Assembly (NCBI RefSeq): GCF_900113135.1
Contig: NZ_FOOH01000011.1
Location: 62,001-126,000 of the forward strand
Direction of reading: 5' to 3'
From: Salegentibacter agarivorans
GTDB taxonomy: Bacteria > Bacteroidota > Bacteroidia > Flavobacteriales > Flavobacteriaceae
DNA: 64,000 nt
Numbering within the stretch: the first letter of the stretch is position 1; each line of letters starts with the position of its first letter. Made by a program: the position numbers and the translations under genes. The notes under the pieces were generated by a model. It was not told the origin of the DNA. It was given only the letters and a program-made list of their open reading frames with translations, and made no database searches. This document shows, piece by piece, positions 51,335 through 58,693 of the stretch.

Positions 51335-51352
51335 TGTGATTAAACAATCACA
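51335..51352 (+). promoter_or_regulatory. Palindrome just before the LuxR-type gene start
   Basis: TGTGATT-AAAC-AATCACA, a perfect 7-bp inverted repeat, ends 4 bp before the ATG at 51357. TATATTTA (51326-51333), one mismatch from TAnnTTTG, directly precedes it. This is a plausible self-regulation site or translation-blocking hairpin. Confidence 0.35.
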
Positions 51353-51356
51353 CTTT

Positions 51357-52163
51357 ATGCAAAAGGATTTCGAAAAAATCTCCGCTTACTGGCAGGAAAT
51401 GTATTCCCGCCAGGTAAAAGAGTATCGGCCGTTTGAAATCTCTGAAGAATTTAAAAGATTTGCCACTATTTTCGCCCCGGGAGACTCCTATTTATATATT
51501 GTAAACCTTCATAATTTTGGATTGGAATATGTTTCTAATTCGGTAGAACGTTTTGTAAATAAAAAGGCCGGAGATATTACGCTACAGGATTTATTACAAA
51601 CCGTTATCCCCGAAGAAATTGAAATTATAAGTCTTAAGAGCAAAGTCATCAATAATTTTTATACCGAATTTCTTGATAAAGAAGATGTATTAAACTATAA
51701 AAATATGTTTTCTTATAGAATGAAAAATGCCGGCGAACAAACACGAACTATGTTGTATCAAGCATTCCCATTAAGTGTGTTAGAAAATGGAACCCCAGAA
51801 CATGTATTGTGCATTCAAACCGATGTTTCTCACCTTAAAGTGACCAGTACCAATACAGTTTCATTTATTCATATAAACGGCGGAAAATCTTATTATAATA
51901 TAGATATTTCTAAAGGTACATTTGAACCCGGCGAAAGTGCAGATGCCAATTTTTCAGAATTTCTCACCGAAAAAGAAAAAACTATTGTTTGTAAATTATC
52001 CCGAGGATTAAATGCTGAACAAATAGCCACAGAAATGAACCTCTCTCCTCACACCATTAAGACGCATAGAAGAAACGTACTACAAAAAAGCGGTTGCAGA
52101 AATACTACTGAACTTGTTGCCAAATGTCTTACTACCGGAATAATTTCCCCGGTATTAAGTTGA
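51357..52163 (+). CDS. PAS-like / LuxR-type transcriptional regulator
   Basis: This 268-residue protein has an N-terminal PAS-like sensor part (about 30-165, YLYIVNLHNFGLEYVSNSVE and VLCIQTDVSHLK) and a C-terminal LuxR helix-turn-helix (about 205-260, LTEKEKTIVCKLSRGLNAEQ then IATEMNLSPHTIKTHRRNVL). An upstream in-frame GTG at 51336 sits inside the palindrome at 51335-51352, so the ATG at 51357 is preferred. It has no receiver domain. Its position next to the GH9 genes and the TPR kinase allows a role in either system. Confidence 0.85.
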   Translation: MQKDFEKISAYWQEMYSRQVKEYRPFEISEEFKRFATIFAPGDSYLYIVNLHNFGLEYVSNSVERFVNKKAGDITLQDLLQTVIPEEIEIISLKSKVINNFYTEFLDKEDVLNYKNMFSYRMKNAGEQTRTMLYQAFPLSVLENGTPEHVLCIQTDVSHLKVTSTNTVSFIHINGGKSYYNIDISKGTFEPGESADANFSEFLTEKEKTIVCKLSRGLNAEQIATEMNLSPHTIKTHRRNVLQKSGCRNTTELVAKCLTTGIISPVLS

Positions 52164-52257: not shown

Positions 52258-54219
52258 TTGATTCTGGAGAAAAAATTATTTTTAGCGCTTTCCTTTTTAG
52301 TGCTTTTTAGTCCATCAATTTATGGGCAAATCTTCGATTTTAGTAAACCTGATCCATACAAAAAGATTTTTGTAGAAACCGATGATTTTGGCCTTTCTTA
52401 CTTGAAAGAGCTAGAAGAATCTTTGGAGAAAATTGAGTCAGATACTCTTAAGTTTGAAGTTTTAAACGATCTGGCTTATTACTGGCATACCAGGAACCTC
52501 AGCACTGCCCTGGAGTTTACCGAAAAAGGATTGGCACTTACTTTAGAAAAAAATAATTCGCTTTGGAATGGTAGATTCCAAATTACCAAGGCTGCTATTC
52601 TATTGCGCCAGGAAAAACTAGATGAAGCAGAGGCAGTCCTCAAAGAAGCTGAAGCCAAAGTAACAGAAAGCGACCTTTCATTTCTTAATACACAATTAGG
52701 CTATGTTTACGAACGCCGTGGACAATTAGGAAGAGCTGCCGATTTTGCCCTCGAAACTTTGCGCCTGGGAGAAAAATTAAATAATAATAAAGCAATTGGA
52801 ATTGCTTACAGCGATTTAAGCAACTTGTTTTGGAAGCAGGAAAAATATGAGGAAGGTTTGGAGTATGGCCTGAAATCACTTTCCTTTTTTGAAGAAAGAA
52901 ACGTAGTAGATCTTGATTATGATTTTACACTTTACGTGGTTGGAAATAATTATTTAAAACTTAAACAATACAACAAAGCAATGGAGTACTATACACGTTC
53001 TATTGAAATTGGTGAACGTTATGGTTTTTATAATAATCTAAGCGATGTTTACATTTCTCTTGTAGATCTTTATGCATTTTTGAATGAATTTGAAAGCGCT
53101 GAAGAAGCCGGTAAAAATGCCATAAAGTATGCCTATCTTCTAGATAATGCGTTTATGCTAATGCGTTCTTACCTTTCGGTTGGAGAGTTACAAATTCAGA
53201 ACAAAAATTATCCTGCCGCAATAACTAATATTAAAAAATCTATCGAGGTGGCTACGCCAAGCTTTGGAGATGGTTTCTTCTTAAGCAAAGCTTATAACAG
53301 TCTTGGTGAAGCTTATGCGAAAAATGCACAGTATCAGGAAGCGTATAAAGCATTTTCTGAATATGATTCCCTTAATAAAATTGTATTCACCGCAGAAGCA
53401 GATCAACGTATCTCTCAGCTTGAAACCGAATTTAATGTGGCTCAAAAGGAAAATACTATTCAACTTCAGGAAACAAGGTTATTACAACAGCAAACGAGTC
53501 AAAATCTTATTAGTCTTATTGCCGGCTTATTGTTCCTAATTTTATTGGTGCTATTTGTTAGTTTTAGCAATAATCGAAAGAAAAATAAACTATTAAGAAA
53601 ACAGAATAAGGAGAAAGAATTCTTATTAAAAGAAATTCATCACCGGGTAAAAAATAATCTTGAAGTGGTTTCCAGCCTTTTGGCTTTACAAACAGCACAA
53701 ATTAAAGATCCTAATGTTGTGAGTGCGATGAAGGAGAGCCAGAACAGGGTATATTCTATGAGTATAATTCATCAGCGTTTATACCAGAATGATCATCTTT
53801 CTTCTATTGAAATGAAAGATTATTTCTTAAATCTTGGCAATCATATCCTGGATTCCTTTGGGGAAGAAGAACGCATTAAGATTAACTATAAAATGCCTGA
53901 ATTGCATCTAGATGTAGACACTGCGGTACCTTTGGGATTAATAGTAAACGAACTATTAACAAACAGCCTCAAATATGCTTTTCCGAATAAGCAAGCGGGG
54001 GAGATAACTATAGATTTAGATAAAAAATCGGCTAACGAGTTGCAGCTGCTAGTAAAAGATAATGGTATTGGGCAAACCGAAGGTGAACCCGTTAAAGGAA
54101 CCGGATTCGGAAAAACACTCATCGATTTGCTTACCCGACAATTAGATGGGACGATGCAGGTAATTTATACCTCTGGCACTCAATATTTATTCAATTTTAA
54201 ATCTCACAGGTTTCCTTGA
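52258..54219 (+). CDS. TPR sensor histidine kinase, HisKA_2 (HWE-like) type
   Basis: This 653-residue kinase starts with TTG (52258), since no ATG exists near the clear signal peptide (ILEKKLFLALSFLVLFSPSI). Periplasmic TPR repeats follow (about 45-390, LAYYWHTRNLSTALEFTEKG, MEYYTRSIEIGERYGFYNNL), then one membrane helix (about 415-437), a HisKA_2 domain with acceptor His461/462 in EIHHRVKNNLEVVSSLLALQ and a HATPase domain (about 555-650, LGLIVNELLTNSLKYAFP and GTGFGKTLI). It is convergent with the minus-strand operon, whose other flank is a LytTR regulator, so the two probably form one two-component system. Confidence 0.9.
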   Translation: MILEKKLFLALSFLVLFSPSIYGQIFDFSKPDPYKKIFVETDDFGLSYLKELEESLEKIESDTLKFEVLNDLAYYWHTRNLSTALEFTEKGLALTLEKNNSLWNGRFQITKAAILLRQEKLDEAEAVLKEAEAKVTESDLSFLNTQLGYVYERRGQLGRAADFALETLRLGEKLNNNKAIGIAYSDLSNLFWKQEKYEEGLEYGLKSLSFFEERNVVDLDYDFTLYVVGNNYLKLKQYNKAMEYYTRSIEIGERYGFYNNLSDVYISLVDLYAFLNEFESAEEAGKNAIKYAYLLDNAFMLMRSYLSVGELQIQNKNYPAAITNIKKSIEVATPSFGDGFFLSKAYNSLGEAYAKNAQYQEAYKAFSEYDSLNKIVFTAEADQRISQLETEFNVAQKENTIQLQETRLLQQQTSQNLISLIAGLLFLILLVLFVSFSNNRKKNKLLRKQNKEKEFLLKEIHHRVKNNLEVVSSLLALQTAQIKDPNVVSAMKESQNRVYSMSIIHQRLYQNDHLSSIEMKDYFLNLGNHILDSFGEEERIKINYKMPELHLDVDTAVPLGLIVNELLTNSLKYAFPNKQAGEITIDLDKKSANELQLLVKDNGIGQTEGEPVKGTGFGKTLIDLLTRQLDGTMQVIYTSGTQYLFNFKSHRFP

Positions 54220-54240: not shown

Positions 54241-55095
54241 TTAATTACCCATAGCATCATTTATTTTTTTGGTATCTACATATTGCTGAAAGGCACTAAC
54301 TTTTCCATCTTTTAAAGTCCAAAGGTGAGCAACTTGTGCATTATAAGTTTTTCCCGTTTCTTTAACTTTAGCATTATATCGCAAGGTAGCCAATACCTGA
54401 TTGTTGCTCATTTCATGTAGCTCGATGTCTTCAAGTTTAAAATATTCGTGTTCTGCTCCAACCCTCTCAAAAACACCTTTTAAAACGGCCTCCGGACCTA
54501 TATATGGGTTGCCATCGGCATAAGCATTACCTTCGGCTTCGTTCCATATAATTTCTTCGTCTATTGCTTCCAGAACAGAAGGAATATCACCCTCGCCAAA
54601 AGATTTATAAAGGCCATCAATAATCCCTATGTTTTGATTTGTACTTTCAGGTTTCATCTCCACCCGAATGAGACGTATGGGCTTTGTCTTGCTAAGATTT
54701 ACGACAGAATGCGGTGCCTCCGGTTCTTTGGCCATGGTGAGCGGAAAGCTTAATGGTTCCGGAAGTTTATGAGTATTAAAAATAACCTTATCATTACTAT
54801 CATAGTCAATAAAGTCGGCGGCTTCCTGGATATATAAAACGCTTGGCCATTTGTGATGGTGAAGCGGTTCTTTTTCTTCCGGAGCCAAATAAACTTCAAG
54901 TACCCTTACCTGGTCATTCTCTAATAATATTTTATGATTATTTGGTGCAGCTATCACAGCATCCAGTTCAGCTGGCCAATTAGCCGGATTACCTGTTTTA
55001 TAATCTATTTTTTGACTTTCCTCGTATTCCTGTCCAAAAGTGGCAATCACTAAAAATACGGCCAGGAAAATAGTCTGGTTTTTAAGTGTTTTCAT
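54241..55095 (-). CDS. Secreted cupin-like + NTF2/SnoaL-like protein
   Basis: This 284-residue protein has a signal peptide (MKTLKNQTIFLAVFLVIATF). Residues about 50-150 look like a cupin barrel (VRVLEVYLAPEEKEPLHHHK has metal-ligand-like histidines). Residues about 165-284 are an NTF2/SnoaL fold (EAIDEEIIWNEAEGNAYADG, LWTLKDGKVSAFQQYVDTKK). It is the last gene of the five-gene minus-strand unit and ends 22 bp from the convergent TPR kinase gene. A small-molecule-binding or isomerase role is possible; none is shown. Confidence 0.75.
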   Translation of the reverse strand: MKTLKNQTIFLAVFLVIATFGQEYEESQKIDYKTGNPANWPAELDAVIAAPNNHKILLENDQVRVLEVYLAPEEKEPLHHHKWPSVLYIQEAADFIDYDSNDKVIFNTHKLPEPLSFPLTMAKEPEAPHSVVNLSKTKPIRLIRVEMKPESTNQNIGIIDGLYKSFGEGDIPSVLEAIDEEIIWNEAEGNAYADGNPYIGPEAVLKGVFERVGAEHEYFKLEDIELHEMSNNQVLATLRYNAKVKETGKTYNAQVAHLWTLKDGKVSAFQQYVDTKKINDAMGN

Positions 55096-55124
55096 GATTA
55101 ATATGTTTTAAATTCGGTAATTTC

Positions 55125-56069
55125 TCATTTAGAATAACTTCTTAGGGTTTCTCTTACGGGCCTGAACTGAATTCCTAAATCTGTTTTTGCGAGATCGTTT
55201 TTATAGACAATTTGTGCTTTTTCCTTGGGTTCTTTATGATTCAACATTTGATGAATATCCCACACTTTATATGTTTCACTCGTTAAAAGGTAATCTTTGC
55301 AGTGTAAGCCCTTTTTCGTGGCTGCCTGGTATGTGGCATTAGCCACGTCTTCAACATCTACCACGGCAAAAGGAACATTATTATCGTAGAGTCTTTGAAT
55401 AAAATCATCTGGCGCTAATTTGTTCTTTATAAGAAATTGCAGGCCAGTAGAGGTGGAGTCTTCTCTATTAGACAAAGATTTGCCCATCACCATTACGGGG
55501 GAAACAGAACAAATTTCAAATGGAAGGTCCGGGTTATCTGCGATGAATTTCTCAACGACCTGGTTAGCAATAAATTTGGCTTGAGAGTATGGATGGCTAT
55601 CTTCACTGGTGTACCTGTCTTCTTTTTCATCAAAAGTATCAGAAAAGCTTTTGCCACCTGCCGGCATTGGGAAATTGGTATTCCAGGCTGCAACAGATGC
55701 AATAAAAACTACTTTTTCAATATTCGAAACCTCGCTTATTGCCTGGAGAAAATTTTGGGTTCCTTTTATAGTAGGATCATAAAGTTCAGCTTGCGGGTCT
55801 TTTACATCCAGTTGAAAGGGAGTGCCACTGTGAATTACGATCTCGCAATCTTTTATAAAATCTTTTAATTGATCCAGGTCTTCCAACTTAAAAGCCCTGA
55901 TGTTGAGGTTTTCTGAATTTTGAAGATCAAAAAGATGCTGATATTTTTCGCTCTTATGGATATTGGTTACCGAAACTTTTACCTCGTAGCCTTCTTCCAA
56001 AAATTTCCTGGTTATGTAGCTTCCAATAAAGCCCGAACCGCCTATAATTCCTACCGTTTTCATCATCAT
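55125..56069 (-). CDS. NAD-dependent epimerase/dehydratase (extended SDR)
   Basis: This 314-residue cytoplasmic Rossmann-fold enzyme has VGIIGGSGFIGSYITRKF (GxxGxxG), the aldehyde-reductase-like TPFQLDVKDPQAELYDPTIK, and catalytic YSQAKFIANQ (Tyr-x-x-x-Lys). The pattern is closest to dihydroflavonol-4-reductase-like or aldehyde reductase-like SDRs. Three ATG codons begin the frame; the third gives MKTVGIIG and any could be used. Unlike its neighbours it has no signal peptide, so the operon mixes cytoplasmic and exported products. Confidence 0.85.
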   Translation of the reverse strand: MMMKTVGIIGGSGFIGSYITRKFLEEGYEVKVSVTNIHKSEKYQHLFDLQNSENLNIRAFKLEDLDQLKDFIKDCEIVIHSGTPFQLDVKDPQAELYDPTIKGTQNFLQAISEVSNIEKVVFIASVAAWNTNFPMPAGGKSFSDTFDEKEDRYTSEDSHPYSQAKFIANQVVEKFIADNPDLPFEICSVSPVMVMGKSLSNREDSTSTGLQFLIKNKLAPDDFIQRLYDNNVPFAVVDVEDVANATYQAATKKGLHCKDYLLTSETYKVWDIHQMLNHKEPKEKAQIVYKNDLAKTDLGIQFRPVRETLRSYSK

Positions 56070-56101
56070 AGCATTTAAGTAAGTCGTAACTGTATTAACA
56101 G

Positions 56102-56620
56102 TTAATTCCCGGTTCTTTCTTCTGAAGAACTTAATTCATCTGCCTGCTGGATATCCTTTACTATTTTTGAAACATCCCAATAACCAAATTCTCTTACAAT
56201 TTTCCCGTTAACAAACCGGGCAGTAATATGAGTGGGAATTTGATACACTTTATTATTTGCTTTATAAGTGCCCTCCCAAAGGCCCCAAAAGTTCACCCAG
56301 GTTTCGCCTTCATCGTTTACAATCATTTCATATTCTGAGGCATCGTCTACAAAATTCCAGCTAGTAAATTGAGAGGCATCTTTCTTGTTTTCCGCTAAGA
56401 ATTGCGTTAGGTTTTTCCCGTTTTCTTCTGTTACATTGTTCATTATTTTAGCGGTATCACTATAATGTGCTAGCATAGCTTCCCAATCCCTATCTTCATA
56501 ATCTTCCAGTACTTGTTTGTAAGTTTCTATTTCTGGTGATTGCTGGGTGTAGCGTGTTCGTTGTTGGCTACAAGCTATAAATATGACTATTGCAACTCCT
56601 AATGACATTAACTCTTTCAT
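56102..56620 (-). CDS. NTF2-like lipoprotein
   Basis: This 172-residue lipoprotein (MKELMSLGVAIVIFIAC) has an NTF2/SnoaL-like fold (about 30-150): YKQVLEDYEDRDWEAMLAHY, SDTAKIMNN and HITARFVNGKIVREFGYWDV. The domain forms a cone with a ligand pocket, used by many ketosteroid isomerase-like enzymes and by pure binding proteins. It lies in the middle of the five-gene unit, 32 bp before the epimerase gene. Confidence 0.8.
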   Translation of the reverse strand: MKELMSLGVAIVIFIACSQQRTRYTQQSPEIETYKQVLEDYEDRDWEAMLAHYSDTAKIMNNVTEENGKNLTQFLAENKKDASQFTSWNFVDDASEYEMIVNDEGETWVNFWGLWEGTYKANNKVYQIPTHITARFVNGKIVREFGYWDVSKIVKDIQQADELSSSEERTGN

Positions 56621-56636
56621 GACTTTATATTTTTAA

Positions 56637-57047
56637 TTATTCTAGGAAACCTATTATTTTACCTTGCTTTAAAGACCAGGAATGTTTAAATATTGTATAG
56701 ATGTATTCACATTCTGATGCTTTGCGACCCTTCACTATTCCGGTTACCAAAACCTTATTTTTACCAGATACCTGAAAATTGAGATCCTTAAATAGAATGC
56801 TTTGCCATTCATTTTTTATAATTCCGCTAAGCGTAATATTGTAATTGCTATTCTTTACACTTTCTATTTCATCCCAATCTATACTGTTCGTTAGTGCGGC
56901 AATTTCATTTGCCGTAGCATTCTTATTTTGCAAGATTTCATATAGCTTTTTTACCAAATCCTGGTCAATATTCTCCTGCCCCTGCAAGTAGTTTGAAGTA
57001 AACAAACCAATAAGTAATGAGATGAAATAGAGGTGTAAGACTTTCAT
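56637..57047 (-). CDS. Secreted small protein, possibly NTF2-like
   Basis: This 136-residue protein has a signal peptide (about 1-23, LLIGLFTSNYLQGQ). The rest resembles a degenerate NTF2-like fold by pattern (KKLYEILQNKNATANEIAAL at the front, IYTIFKHSWSLKQGKIIGFLE at the end, like the usual W-x-x-KDGKI end of SnoaL domains). I am unsure of the family. It follows the first gene of the operon by 14 bp and is followed by the NTF2-like lipoprotein after 16 bp. Confidence 0.65.
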   Translation of the reverse strand: MKVLHLYFISLLIGLFTSNYLQGQENIDQDLVKKLYEILQNKNATANEIAALTNSIDWDEIESVKNSNYNITLSGIIKNEWQSILFKDLNFQVSGKNKVLVTGIVKGRKASECEYIYTIFKHSWSLKQGKIIGFLE

Positions 57048-57061
57048 AGCTGTTTATTTAA

Positions 57062-57829
57062 TTAATTGGAGATATAAGCTAGATCTGGACGCATACTGCC
57101 TGTTTTAGATTCATATTTATGAACATATTGCATAAGATCATCAAATAATTTCTCACCCTCTTCTCCAAGCAGTTTATCTGTTTCTTCAGAAGTTTTAGCA
57201 TAGGATTGCGCATCTTTTGCTGAAATCACCACTAGGTAATAATCTCCAGTACTTCCAAAACCATTGCGATAAATTCTGAAATGTTGTGTAGCACCTTTTG
57301 TTTCATAAAGGGATTTAATCTCCTTCATCTTGTTTCTAAGGTTCGTAACATTTTGTGGTGTCACGTGAAAGAAATGCCATTTCCGGTAATCTTCTCCCTC
57401 GGTATTTGTGGTAAGGCCGTTGGGCATATAAGACATATCGTTTATTAAATGCACCATATAATTGCGGTGGGTATCGTAGCATTTATCAAATCGACTAAAT
57501 ATAGCCCTGAAGTTTTCTTCTCCCATCTTTTCGGCTAAAGGCGCCATAGGATTTTTGTCAAAATCGGCCATACTATTTATGGGAGCAATAGTTAAATAGG
57601 TTCCTCCGTCAATACGCGCTGTAGTCCAGTCTGCATCTTTAAGATTGTGTTCCTTGCAGGCTTTAATAAAATCTTTGGTAACGGCTTCATATTCTTTTAG
57701 CATAGCAGGTTTTACCTGATCTTCGTGTATCCAGAATGCCTGAGTAGTGCTTCCATTTTGTGCCAATAATTCATTGGTGTTCAATAATACAATTGCTACA
57801 AAAAGGGCAATAAATTTTACGGTCTCCAT
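57062..57829 (-). CDS. Secreted protein of unknown function, dimeric alpha/beta-barrel-like
   Basis: This 255-residue protein has a signal peptide (METVKFIALFVAIVLLNTNE, up to about residue 24). It shows two repeats of a ferredoxin-like alpha/beta pattern, one at the front (TQAFWIHEDQVKPAMLKEYE) and one at the back (WHFFHVTPQNVTNLRNKMKE), like dimeric alpha/beta-barrel proteins fused in one chain. No catalytic residue is clear. It is the first gene of the unit, and the direct repeat at 57873-57919 lies just upstream. Confidence 0.7.
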   Translation of the reverse strand: METVKFIALFVAIVLLNTNELLAQNGSTTQAFWIHEDQVKPAMLKEYEAVTKDFIKACKEHNLKDADWTTARIDGGTYLTIAPINSMADFDKNPMAPLAEKMGEENFRAIFSRFDKCYDTHRNYMVHLINDMSYMPNGLTTNTEGEDYRKWHFFHVTPQNVTNLRNKMKEIKSLYETKGATQHFRIYRNGFGSTGDYYLVVISAKDAQSYAKTSEETDKLLGEEGEKLFDDLMQYVHKYESKTGSMRPDLAYISN

Positions 57830-57872
57830 AATTTCTTGTTTTTAAATTAATTACAAGAACAATATACCATCG

Positions 57873-57919
57873 TAAAAAACTGAAATAAAGCATGTTAGGA
57901 CGAGAATGCTAAAAAACTG
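57873..57919 (-). promoter_or_regulatory. Direct repeat upstream of the five-gene operon, candidate LytTR site
   Basis: CAGTTTTTTA occurs twice in perfect copies on the minus strand (57919-57910 and 57882-57873), 37 bp apart. Each, with one more base, gives [A/T]CAGTTTTT, matching 8 of 9 positions of the LytTR consensus [TA][AC][CA]GTTN[AG][TG]. Spacing is wider than the usual 20-22 bp. A 7-bp inverted repeat TTAGGAC/GTCCTAA (57895-57901 and 57919-57925) overlaps. The operon starts at 57829. Confidence 0.45.
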
Positions 57920-57949
57920 TCCTAAACACCCTTATTTTTGATCAAAGGT

Positions 57950-58693
57950 CTAAATGGTCTGCAGTCTTTTTAAAAGTTCTGGGCGTTTATCTTTGGTCAT
58001 AGGAATAGCTTTTTTAGAAATAACGACGTGAGTGCCTGCTATTTCATCTATTCTGGAAAGGTTAATAATATAGGACCTATGGATTCTTAGGAAATGTTTT
58101 GGAGGAAGTTTTTTATCCATTTCTTTAAGGGTTGTGACCAGTAAATATTCTTTTTCAGCAGAAAAAATACGGCAGTAATTACGCTCTGCCACTATGTATT
58201 TAATAGCTTTAATATCTACCTTTACCATAGTATCCTGGTGCCTTACAAACAGGCAATCTTTGAGAATAAAAGTAGCATCTTCAACCTTATTTCCTGGCGA
58301 AGTGACGATATTGCATTTTAACTGACTTATGGTTAGTTCTATACTTCGCTGTAGATCTAATTTCTTAAAGGGTTTAGATATAAAAGCAAAGGGGTGGGTT
58401 TCTTTTGCCCGGTTGAAATTTGCTTCATCGGCATTTGCGGTAAGATAAATAATGGCAAGATTAGGATGCAAATCCTGCATCTTTTGTGCGGTTTCTATTC
58501 CATCTAATTCCCCTTTAAGCTGAATATCTATCAACGCAATATCCAGGGGATTGTTTTTAATAAATCGCAACGCGTCTTCTCCCTTCGGAATAATCCCAGA
58601 AACCTCATAGCCCATTTCGGTAAGCTGCAGTGAAATATTAGCTGCAATGATCATTTCATCCTCAACTATTAATATTTGTATGGGTTGAATCAT
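57950..58693 (-). CDS. LytTR-family response regulator
   Basis: This 247-residue regulator has a receiver domain (about 5-120) with phospho-acceptor Asp56 in DIALIDIQLKGELDGIETA and the conserved Lys in AFISKPFKKLDL. A LytTR DNA-binding domain follows (about 145-245) with VAERNYCRIFSAEKEYLL and HFLRIHRSYIINLSRIDEI. It is the probable partner of the TPR HisKA_2 kinase at the other end of the five-gene operon. The gene precedes the operon on the same strand with a 120-bp gap, so control of that operon is likely. Confidence 0.93.
   Translation of the reverse strand: MIQPIQILIVEDEMIIAANISLQLTEMGYEVSGIIPKGEDALRFIKNNPLDIALIDIQLKGELDGIETAQKMQDLHPNLAIIYLTANADEANFNRAKETHPFAFISKPFKKLDLQRSIELTISQLKCNIVTSPGNKVEDATFILKDCLFVRHQDTMVKVDIKAIKYIVAERNYCRIFSAEKEYLLVTTLKEMDKKLPPKHFLRIHRSYIINLSRIDEIAGTHVVISKKAIPMTKDKRPELLKRLQTI

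Follow-up and report, generated by a model that had tools for sequence, protein, structure and literature searches.

A probable Flavobacteriaceae two-component regulon of exported barrel, NTF2-like and cupin-like proteins, seen from a locus of Salegentibacter agarivorans

A 64,000-nucleotide stretch of Salegentibacter agarivorans DNA (hereafter the window, to which all positions refer) holds, between a TPR sensor kinase and a LytTR response regulator, an operon of small exported-type proteins. In our opinion this locus is fairly probably the Salegentibacter-type copy of a Flavobacteriaceae two-component regulon of exported proteins, likely acting on aromatic or polyketide-like compounds. The regulatory half of this reading is well supported by sequence comparison, while the chemistry and the signal of the regulon are what we infer. 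We found no description of this system in listings of openly licensed papers. An earlier note on this DNA had described five minus-strand genes, a convergent TPR HisKA_2 kinase and an upstream LytTR regulator; every open reading frame (ORF) of the locus lies where that note had placed it, and the domains agree apart from a weak cupin half. The features are the following:

52258..54219, plus strand: sensor kinase with a TPR region, HisKA_2 and HATPase_c (Pfam; orthologue search)
54241..55095, minus strand: exported-type protein with a cupin-like N-terminal half (weak assignment) and a SnoaL_2/NTF2 C-terminal half (Pfam)
55125..56069, minus strand: cytoplasmic NAD(P) reductase, an extended short-chain dehydrogenase/reductase (SDR) of the dihydroflavonol-reductase/GRE2 kind (Pfam; PDB match)
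56102..56620, minus strand: NTF2a, exported-type NTF2-like protein with a lipoprotein-like start (model and Foldseek; SnoaL_2 below cut-off)
56637..57047, minus strand: sm136, short exported-type NTF2-like protein of 136 aa (profile match to 3grd; alignment)
57062..57829, minus strand: exported-type tandem alpha/beta (ABM-like) barrel without a Pfam family (AlphaFold model; Foldseek)
57860..57866, minus strand: predicted -7 promoter box TATATTG (offset 28 downstream of the operator)
57895..57925, minus strand: operator-like 31-bp site TTAGGACAGTTTTTTAGCATTCTCGTCCTAA (motif model score 19.3)
57950..58693, minus strand: REC-LytTR response regulator (Pfam)

The five minus-strand genes span 54241-57829 with intergenic gaps of 14-32 bp and look like one transcription unit, from which the convergent kinase gene ends 21 bp away. 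The REC-LytTR gene lies 120 bp upstream of the barrel operon, a distance larger than the gaps inside it, and the operator-like site sits in this interval, in front of the -7 box. Signal-like N-termini are seen in every operon product except the SDR, signal-like stretches and lipobox having been judged by eye without a predictor. At the loci compared below, ORFs are longest-first calls, not annotated genes.

The genes of this locus travel with the kinase and the regulator in other genera. Our survey set comprised 299 Flavobacteriaceae genomes from 203 genera, and the barrel profile matches 102 of these genomes in 80 genera (four of the 102 only weakly, at E above 1e-10, and possibly through other barrels); in a phylum-wide sample it matches 15 of 392 genomes, 11 of them within Flavobacteriaceae. 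We compared 100 barrel loci, 99 from barrel-profile matches (four genomes giving two loci, and not every match being included) plus L165. In a span of 7 kb on either side of the barrel, 36 of them have both kinase and LytTR regulator and 72 have NTF2a, the SDR, the cupin/NTF2 gene and the 136-aa gene being found at single-sequence thresholds in 13, 13 and 4. We also looked from the side of the kinase, whose orthologues (at least 599 bits) occur in 36/299 genomes including our own and stand beside a barrel in 24, the window included. Each of the 35 orthologue loci outside the window, including 12 not beside a barrel, has at least one NTF2 or ABM gene no more than 8 kb from the kinase (NTF2-type in 34, ABM-type in 28). 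A COMT-like O-methyltransferase is found within the same distance at 14/35 kinase loci versus 1/64 barrel loci without the system, and a SnoaL-type family, F25, at 29/35 versus 2/64. As immediate divergent neighbour the kinase has F25 in 29 of the 35, another NTF2 or ABM gene in four and neither in two (L092, L171). What kinase and regulator are linked to is a set of exported-type NTF2/ABM genes that changes from locus to locus. The proposal of a linked neighbourhood, rather than a chance grouping, is borne out, and its two-component linkage stands; the idea of a fixed seven-gene unit does not, for the NTF2/ABM set varies between loci and 64/100 barrel loci lack the system, and we have discarded it.

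In the window, a LuxR-type regulator gene (51336-52163, 94 bp upstream of the kinase) occupies the kinase-divergent position, where relatives have a SnoaL-type gene. Among the displayed loci it was named in the window only, and we dropped it as a part of the system.

A recurring candidate operator and the dispersed regulon it appears to mark are additions to the picture drawn in the earlier note. De novo motif search near the 35 kinase starts (290 bp around and upstream of them) returned a 31-bp site, TTCGGACA-N13-TTCGTCCTAA, scoring at least 20 bits at 32/35 training loci (below 20 at L081, L171 and L175). Its log-likelihood is 437.8 versus 80-87 in four shuffles (width 26), which kept base composition alone and were given 12 starts versus 60 for the real data. 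At a threshold of at least 15 bits, the site was found in held-out material at 18/19 of L019-L037, at 11/13 other barrel loci with the system and at 4/4 of L178-L181. One of these loci is a training locus under another name (L034 is L073) and L031 is identical to L077; after removal of duplicates the site is present at 31/34 distinct loci with the system versus 3/64 without. The three latter sites score 15.0-16.7 bits and do not precede genes of the kinds described here, whereas at loci with the system even the lowest-scoring accepted sites reach about 17. The window site scores 19.3, with the next best in the 64 kb at 10.2, and is the only place in its genome with at most two mismatches to the consensus. 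Genome-wide counts at this stringency, tallied by hand from the 299-genome table, give 88 sites in the 36 kinase-orthologue genomes (13 for the reversed control) and 58 in the other 263 (control about 96), at least one site being present in 28 of the 36.

The spacing around the site suggests a promoter. Among 130 unique sites, TAnnTT occurs at exactly offset 28 downstream in 42 (in 9 at the next commonest offset) and TTG at offset 5 in 34. Both elements match the Bacteroidetes-type promoter consensus, and we read them as forming such a promoter; in the window, offset 28 reads TATATTG, but TTG is replaced by TTT. The layout of the site itself agrees with what PMC4847170 gives for LytTR sites, namely a pair of repeats, direct or inverse, each 9-11 nt long and spaced by 11-13 nt: TTCGgAC and TTCGtCC stand 21 bp apart here, a comparison of layout only, and the window site is readable as inverted arms (TTAGGAC/GTCCTAA) too. 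The same source describes LytTR systems (AgrA, YpdB, LytR; BtsSR) in which, as in ours, a REC-LytTR regulator is combined with a site of two repeats ahead of the promoter, whereas here the site has its own sequence and the targets are exported ABM/NTF2 proteins.

The orientation of the sites is one-sided. In 60 regions with 66 sites, hand-picked from 146 and mainly from multi-site genomes, 62 sites precede a gene on their own strand, not one precedes a gene on the other strand and four fall inside ORFs; the distance to the gene is within 200 bp in 58/62 cases (median 80.5 bp). By our own profiles, the 62 first genes include 20 tandem ABM barrels in three sequence clusters, six NTF2-type proteins and three O-methyltransferases. 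Among the remainder are SDRs, SMP-30/NHL lipoproteins, a BBE-type FAD oxidase and an arylsulfotransferase-like protein. Some site-led operons continue into proteins resembling further TPR kinases, as if the system were arranged in a cascade. In L218, L227 and L238 the operator precedes a small exported-type protein and a 621-635-aa protein resembling a TPR kinase.

Starting from proteins instead of sites, we examined 47 barrel genes of family F26, those matches to which a locus had been assigned, counting as a site anything with at most four mismatches (L304 gave no ORF). Sixteen of the genomes were chosen for sites or kinase and the rest came from an even sample of 120; four of the eight rows of the F26 search profile are regulon proteins. 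A site was found at 15/29 genes in kinase-orthologue genomes (nine known from the site search, six new) and at 3/18 elsewhere, the control pattern giving 0/47. By coordinates, 12 of the 14 misses in kinase-orthologue genomes lie within about 8 kb of the kinase, where in our reading a promoter of their own need not exist; the other two are L287, with five mismatches, and L309, which belongs to the same genome as the window. The three site-bearing genes elsewhere are in G153 and G019, which have a related TPR-kinase/LytTR pair, and in G074, where a 247-aa gene precedes another site; G083 has the pair and no site at the examined F26 gene. In the window's genome the regulon may have shrunk to this single operon, since a second site with at most two mismatches is absent and the other F26 barrel has no site.

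The kinase has HisKA_2 at 4.4e-26 (91.2 bits, cut-off 22.3), HATPase_c at 37.4 bits (cut-off 26.4) and TPR repeats, and appears, as read by eye, to have an exported TPR region and one membrane segment. The regulator has Response_reg at 4.1e-21 (75.7 bits, cut-off 30.2) and LytTR at 9.4e-19 (67.9 bits, cut-off 22.6). The LytTR systems named above have kinases of the LytS or AgrC type, and here the kinase is of the TPR-HisKA_2 kind. The kinase resembles the FimS-like TPR kinases of Bacteroidota in joining TPR to a kinase (NCBIfam FimS, 2e-19), but its 69.3 bits versus a cut-off of 600 place it outside that family. Kinase and regulator genes are at most 300 bp apart in 40/44 kinase-orthologue loci (at least one locus being counted twice), and the window, with the two at opposite ends of the operon, is unusual. 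Two different TPR kinases surround one operon in Gillisia (L024) and in L141, which suggests an ancestral pair of which the window has lost one member. Mutations in LytTR and histidine kinase genes are reported for Flavobacterium johnsoniae co-evolved with Burkholderia thailandensis (PMC10197871).

The barrel protein itself is foreign to Pfam: the search returned nothing better than E 0.02, the ABM family does not match it at E up to 1 or five other tandem barrel types at 0.01, and neither its profile nor that of NTF2a led to any useful match among PDB sequences. Its AlphaFold model (pLDDT 88.7) is a tandem ferredoxin-like barrel of two halves, in agreement with the alpha/beta-barrel-like protein of the earlier note. 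The best Foldseek matches, 3f44 (2.7e-9) and 5f9p (3.5e-9), are tandem ABM monooxygenase-like and anthrone oxidase-like proteins, PenE (9kdp) being another, with query TM-scores of 0.51-0.56 and 9-13% identity. The window barrel shares their two ferredoxin-like halves and differs by its signal-like N-terminus, its lack of a Pfam ABM match and this low identity. We regard it as an ABM-type tandem fold by prediction, whose likeness to anthrone oxidase is at the level of fold alone. The alignment has an invariant H35-E36-D37 in the first half and R149, R185 and Y187 in the second, residues that may form an active site. The closest named match is from Salegentibacter salarius (89% identity).

Both proteins called NTF2-like in the earlier note kept that assignment. 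NTF2a has a lipobox-like FIAC, a SnoaL_2 match (1.7e-5, 25.8 bits) below the cut-off of 27 and a model (pLDDT 88.6) whose best Foldseek matches are SnoaL polyketide cyclases and related isomerases. It has the NTF2 fold in common with 3i0y, Trt14, SdnG and IdmH (E down to 1.5e-7), and F25 also matches Pfam SnoaL, at 5.6e-19; the system's proteins differ from these by a signal-like, often lipoprotein-like N-terminus, and we noticed no biosynthetic cluster beside their genes. For sm136, Pfam gave nothing better than E 0.02, and its profile matches the NTF2 structure 3grd at 1.3e-5, the one match from which its assignment comes. The reductase also proved as described (Pfam Epimerase/3Beta_HSD; best PDB match 4qtz at 2.3e-26), its nearest relatives being dihydroflavonol and GRE2-type reductases. 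The claimed cupin-NTF2 protein was upheld by halves: SnoaL_2 covers the C-terminal one (6.6e-8, 33.5 bits versus 27), while the cupin assignment of the N-terminal half is weak, since Cupin_2, though the best match for three homologues, stays below cut-off each time (E 0.18, 0.019 and 0.046), and a PDB sequence search gave no match. This half is replaced in four of six aligned relatives (17-25% identity versus 71-82% for the C-terminal half) and kept in L019 and L021. The exchange is seen in the close relatives L020, L023, L024 and L025, with a boundary near residue 150. PADLOC models matched none of the seven locus proteins, and we set anti-phage defence aside.

From these elements a mechanism can be sketched. 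The periplasmic TPR region would sense a signal, perhaps by binding an exported protein with or without its ligand, and the kinase would phosphorylate the adjacent REC-LytTR regulator, as domains and adjacency suggest. The regulator would bind the 31-bp two-repeat site upstream of the promoter and turn on the barrel operon; operon, linkage, site, orientation and promoter spacing are read in the sequence itself, and the binding and activation are our proposal. The barrel, the two NTF2 proteins and the cupin-like/NTF2 protein would then be exported and the reductase would stay in the cytoplasm. The exported folds are those of enzymes often working without a soluble cofactor (cyclases, isomerases, quinone-forming oxygenases), which would suit the periplasm, with the NAD(P)H-type reductase kept inside. 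The regulon products would be exported, mostly cofactor-free enzymes or binding proteins, and their likeliest substrates external aromatic or polyketide-like compounds, to be modified or detoxified, because of the predicted folds, the dihydroflavonol-reductase-like SDR and the excess of O-methyltransferases at kinase loci. Binding or isomerisation of a small hydrophobic compound, as first suggested for this locus, fits the modelled folds.

Several observations weigh against this reading. The two-component system is absent at 64/100 barrel loci, where a frequent order is rsmD, NTF2a, barrel, dnaX, or a place beside ffh (the names are our reading of the sequences); with many at a fixed position, the barrel/NTF2 pair has a role without the system. 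The site is missing at 15 bits from the held-out loci L069, L162 and L026, which have the system, and at two mismatches from 8/36 kinase-orthologue genomes; in the window's genome, with its one site at two mismatches, allowing up to three gives 2 for the site pattern versus 6 for the control. More than half of the first genes (33/62) are not ABM, NTF2 or O-methyltransferase by our profiles. Finally, proteins with ABM, NTF2 or cupin folds have very diverse functions, most TM-scores (by query length) in the Foldseek searches with the barrel and NTF2a are 0.4-0.6, and no polyketide synthase was noticed beside the genes, though no search was aimed at one.

It is conceivable, if on balance doubtful, that the regulon is real and its exported barrels and NTF2 proteins are not enzymes: they would bind a ligand and hand it to the TPR sensor, or help to maintain the envelope or surface. 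Protein binding is common among TPR domains, the kinase has an NTF2 or ABM gene immediately divergent from it in 33/35 loci, and the targets extend to SMP-30/NHL-like lipoproteins and to operons with further TPR proteins about as long as the kinase, all of which would suit such a role; yet targets and neighbours also include clear enzymes (O-methyltransferase, SDR, BBE-type FAD oxidase), and the invariant residues of the barrel may be an active site. It is improbable that another regulator travelling with the system binds the 31-bp site and the LytTR protein controls something else: the assignment of site to regulator comes from sequence, and the LytTR proteins beside the same site fall into two groups by their score to that of the window (about 220-255 and 270-345 bits), but the two-repeat layout and 21-bp period agree with LytTR sites, and the site, placed between the operon and LytTR or kinase, is seldom found at loci without the system. 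The reading that unrelated exported genes have come together by chance next to a two-component system, to which the variable gene content and the 64 barrel loci without the system might point, is ruled out by the NTF2/ABM genes at all 35 kinase loci, the shared operator and its one-sided orientation.

With the regulon of enzymes or binding proteins as our preferred reading, the locus provides candidates for the regulator, the operator and the targets in the case of several exported families that Pfam does not cover, and the role of these families, of which the barrel alone is found in 102 of the 299 sampled genomes, becomes testable. Should the chemistry hold, aromatic or polyketide compounds would be handled in the periplasm, by a cofactor-free route, in a group often found on algae (PMC7440613). 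As a bolder and rather speculative extension, we can imagine a family-wide TPR kinase/LytTR system that governs a fast-changing set of exported cofactor-free ABM/NTF2/cupin-like enzymes, dispersed over the genome by operator copies, and that senses and chemically rewrites external aromatic or polyketide signals or antibiotics, as a periplasmic counterpart of cytoplasmic polyketide tailoring.

Three minor observations concern the barrel loci. The rsmD-dnaX position of the NTF2a-barrel pair recurs in many of L108-L160. Apparently decaying barrel copies, with in-frame stops or split frames, are seen in L117 (G061), G227 and G232. An HGSNAT-like acyltransferase gene recurs near the loci L031, L036, L094 and L103 (Pfam run on L036 alone).

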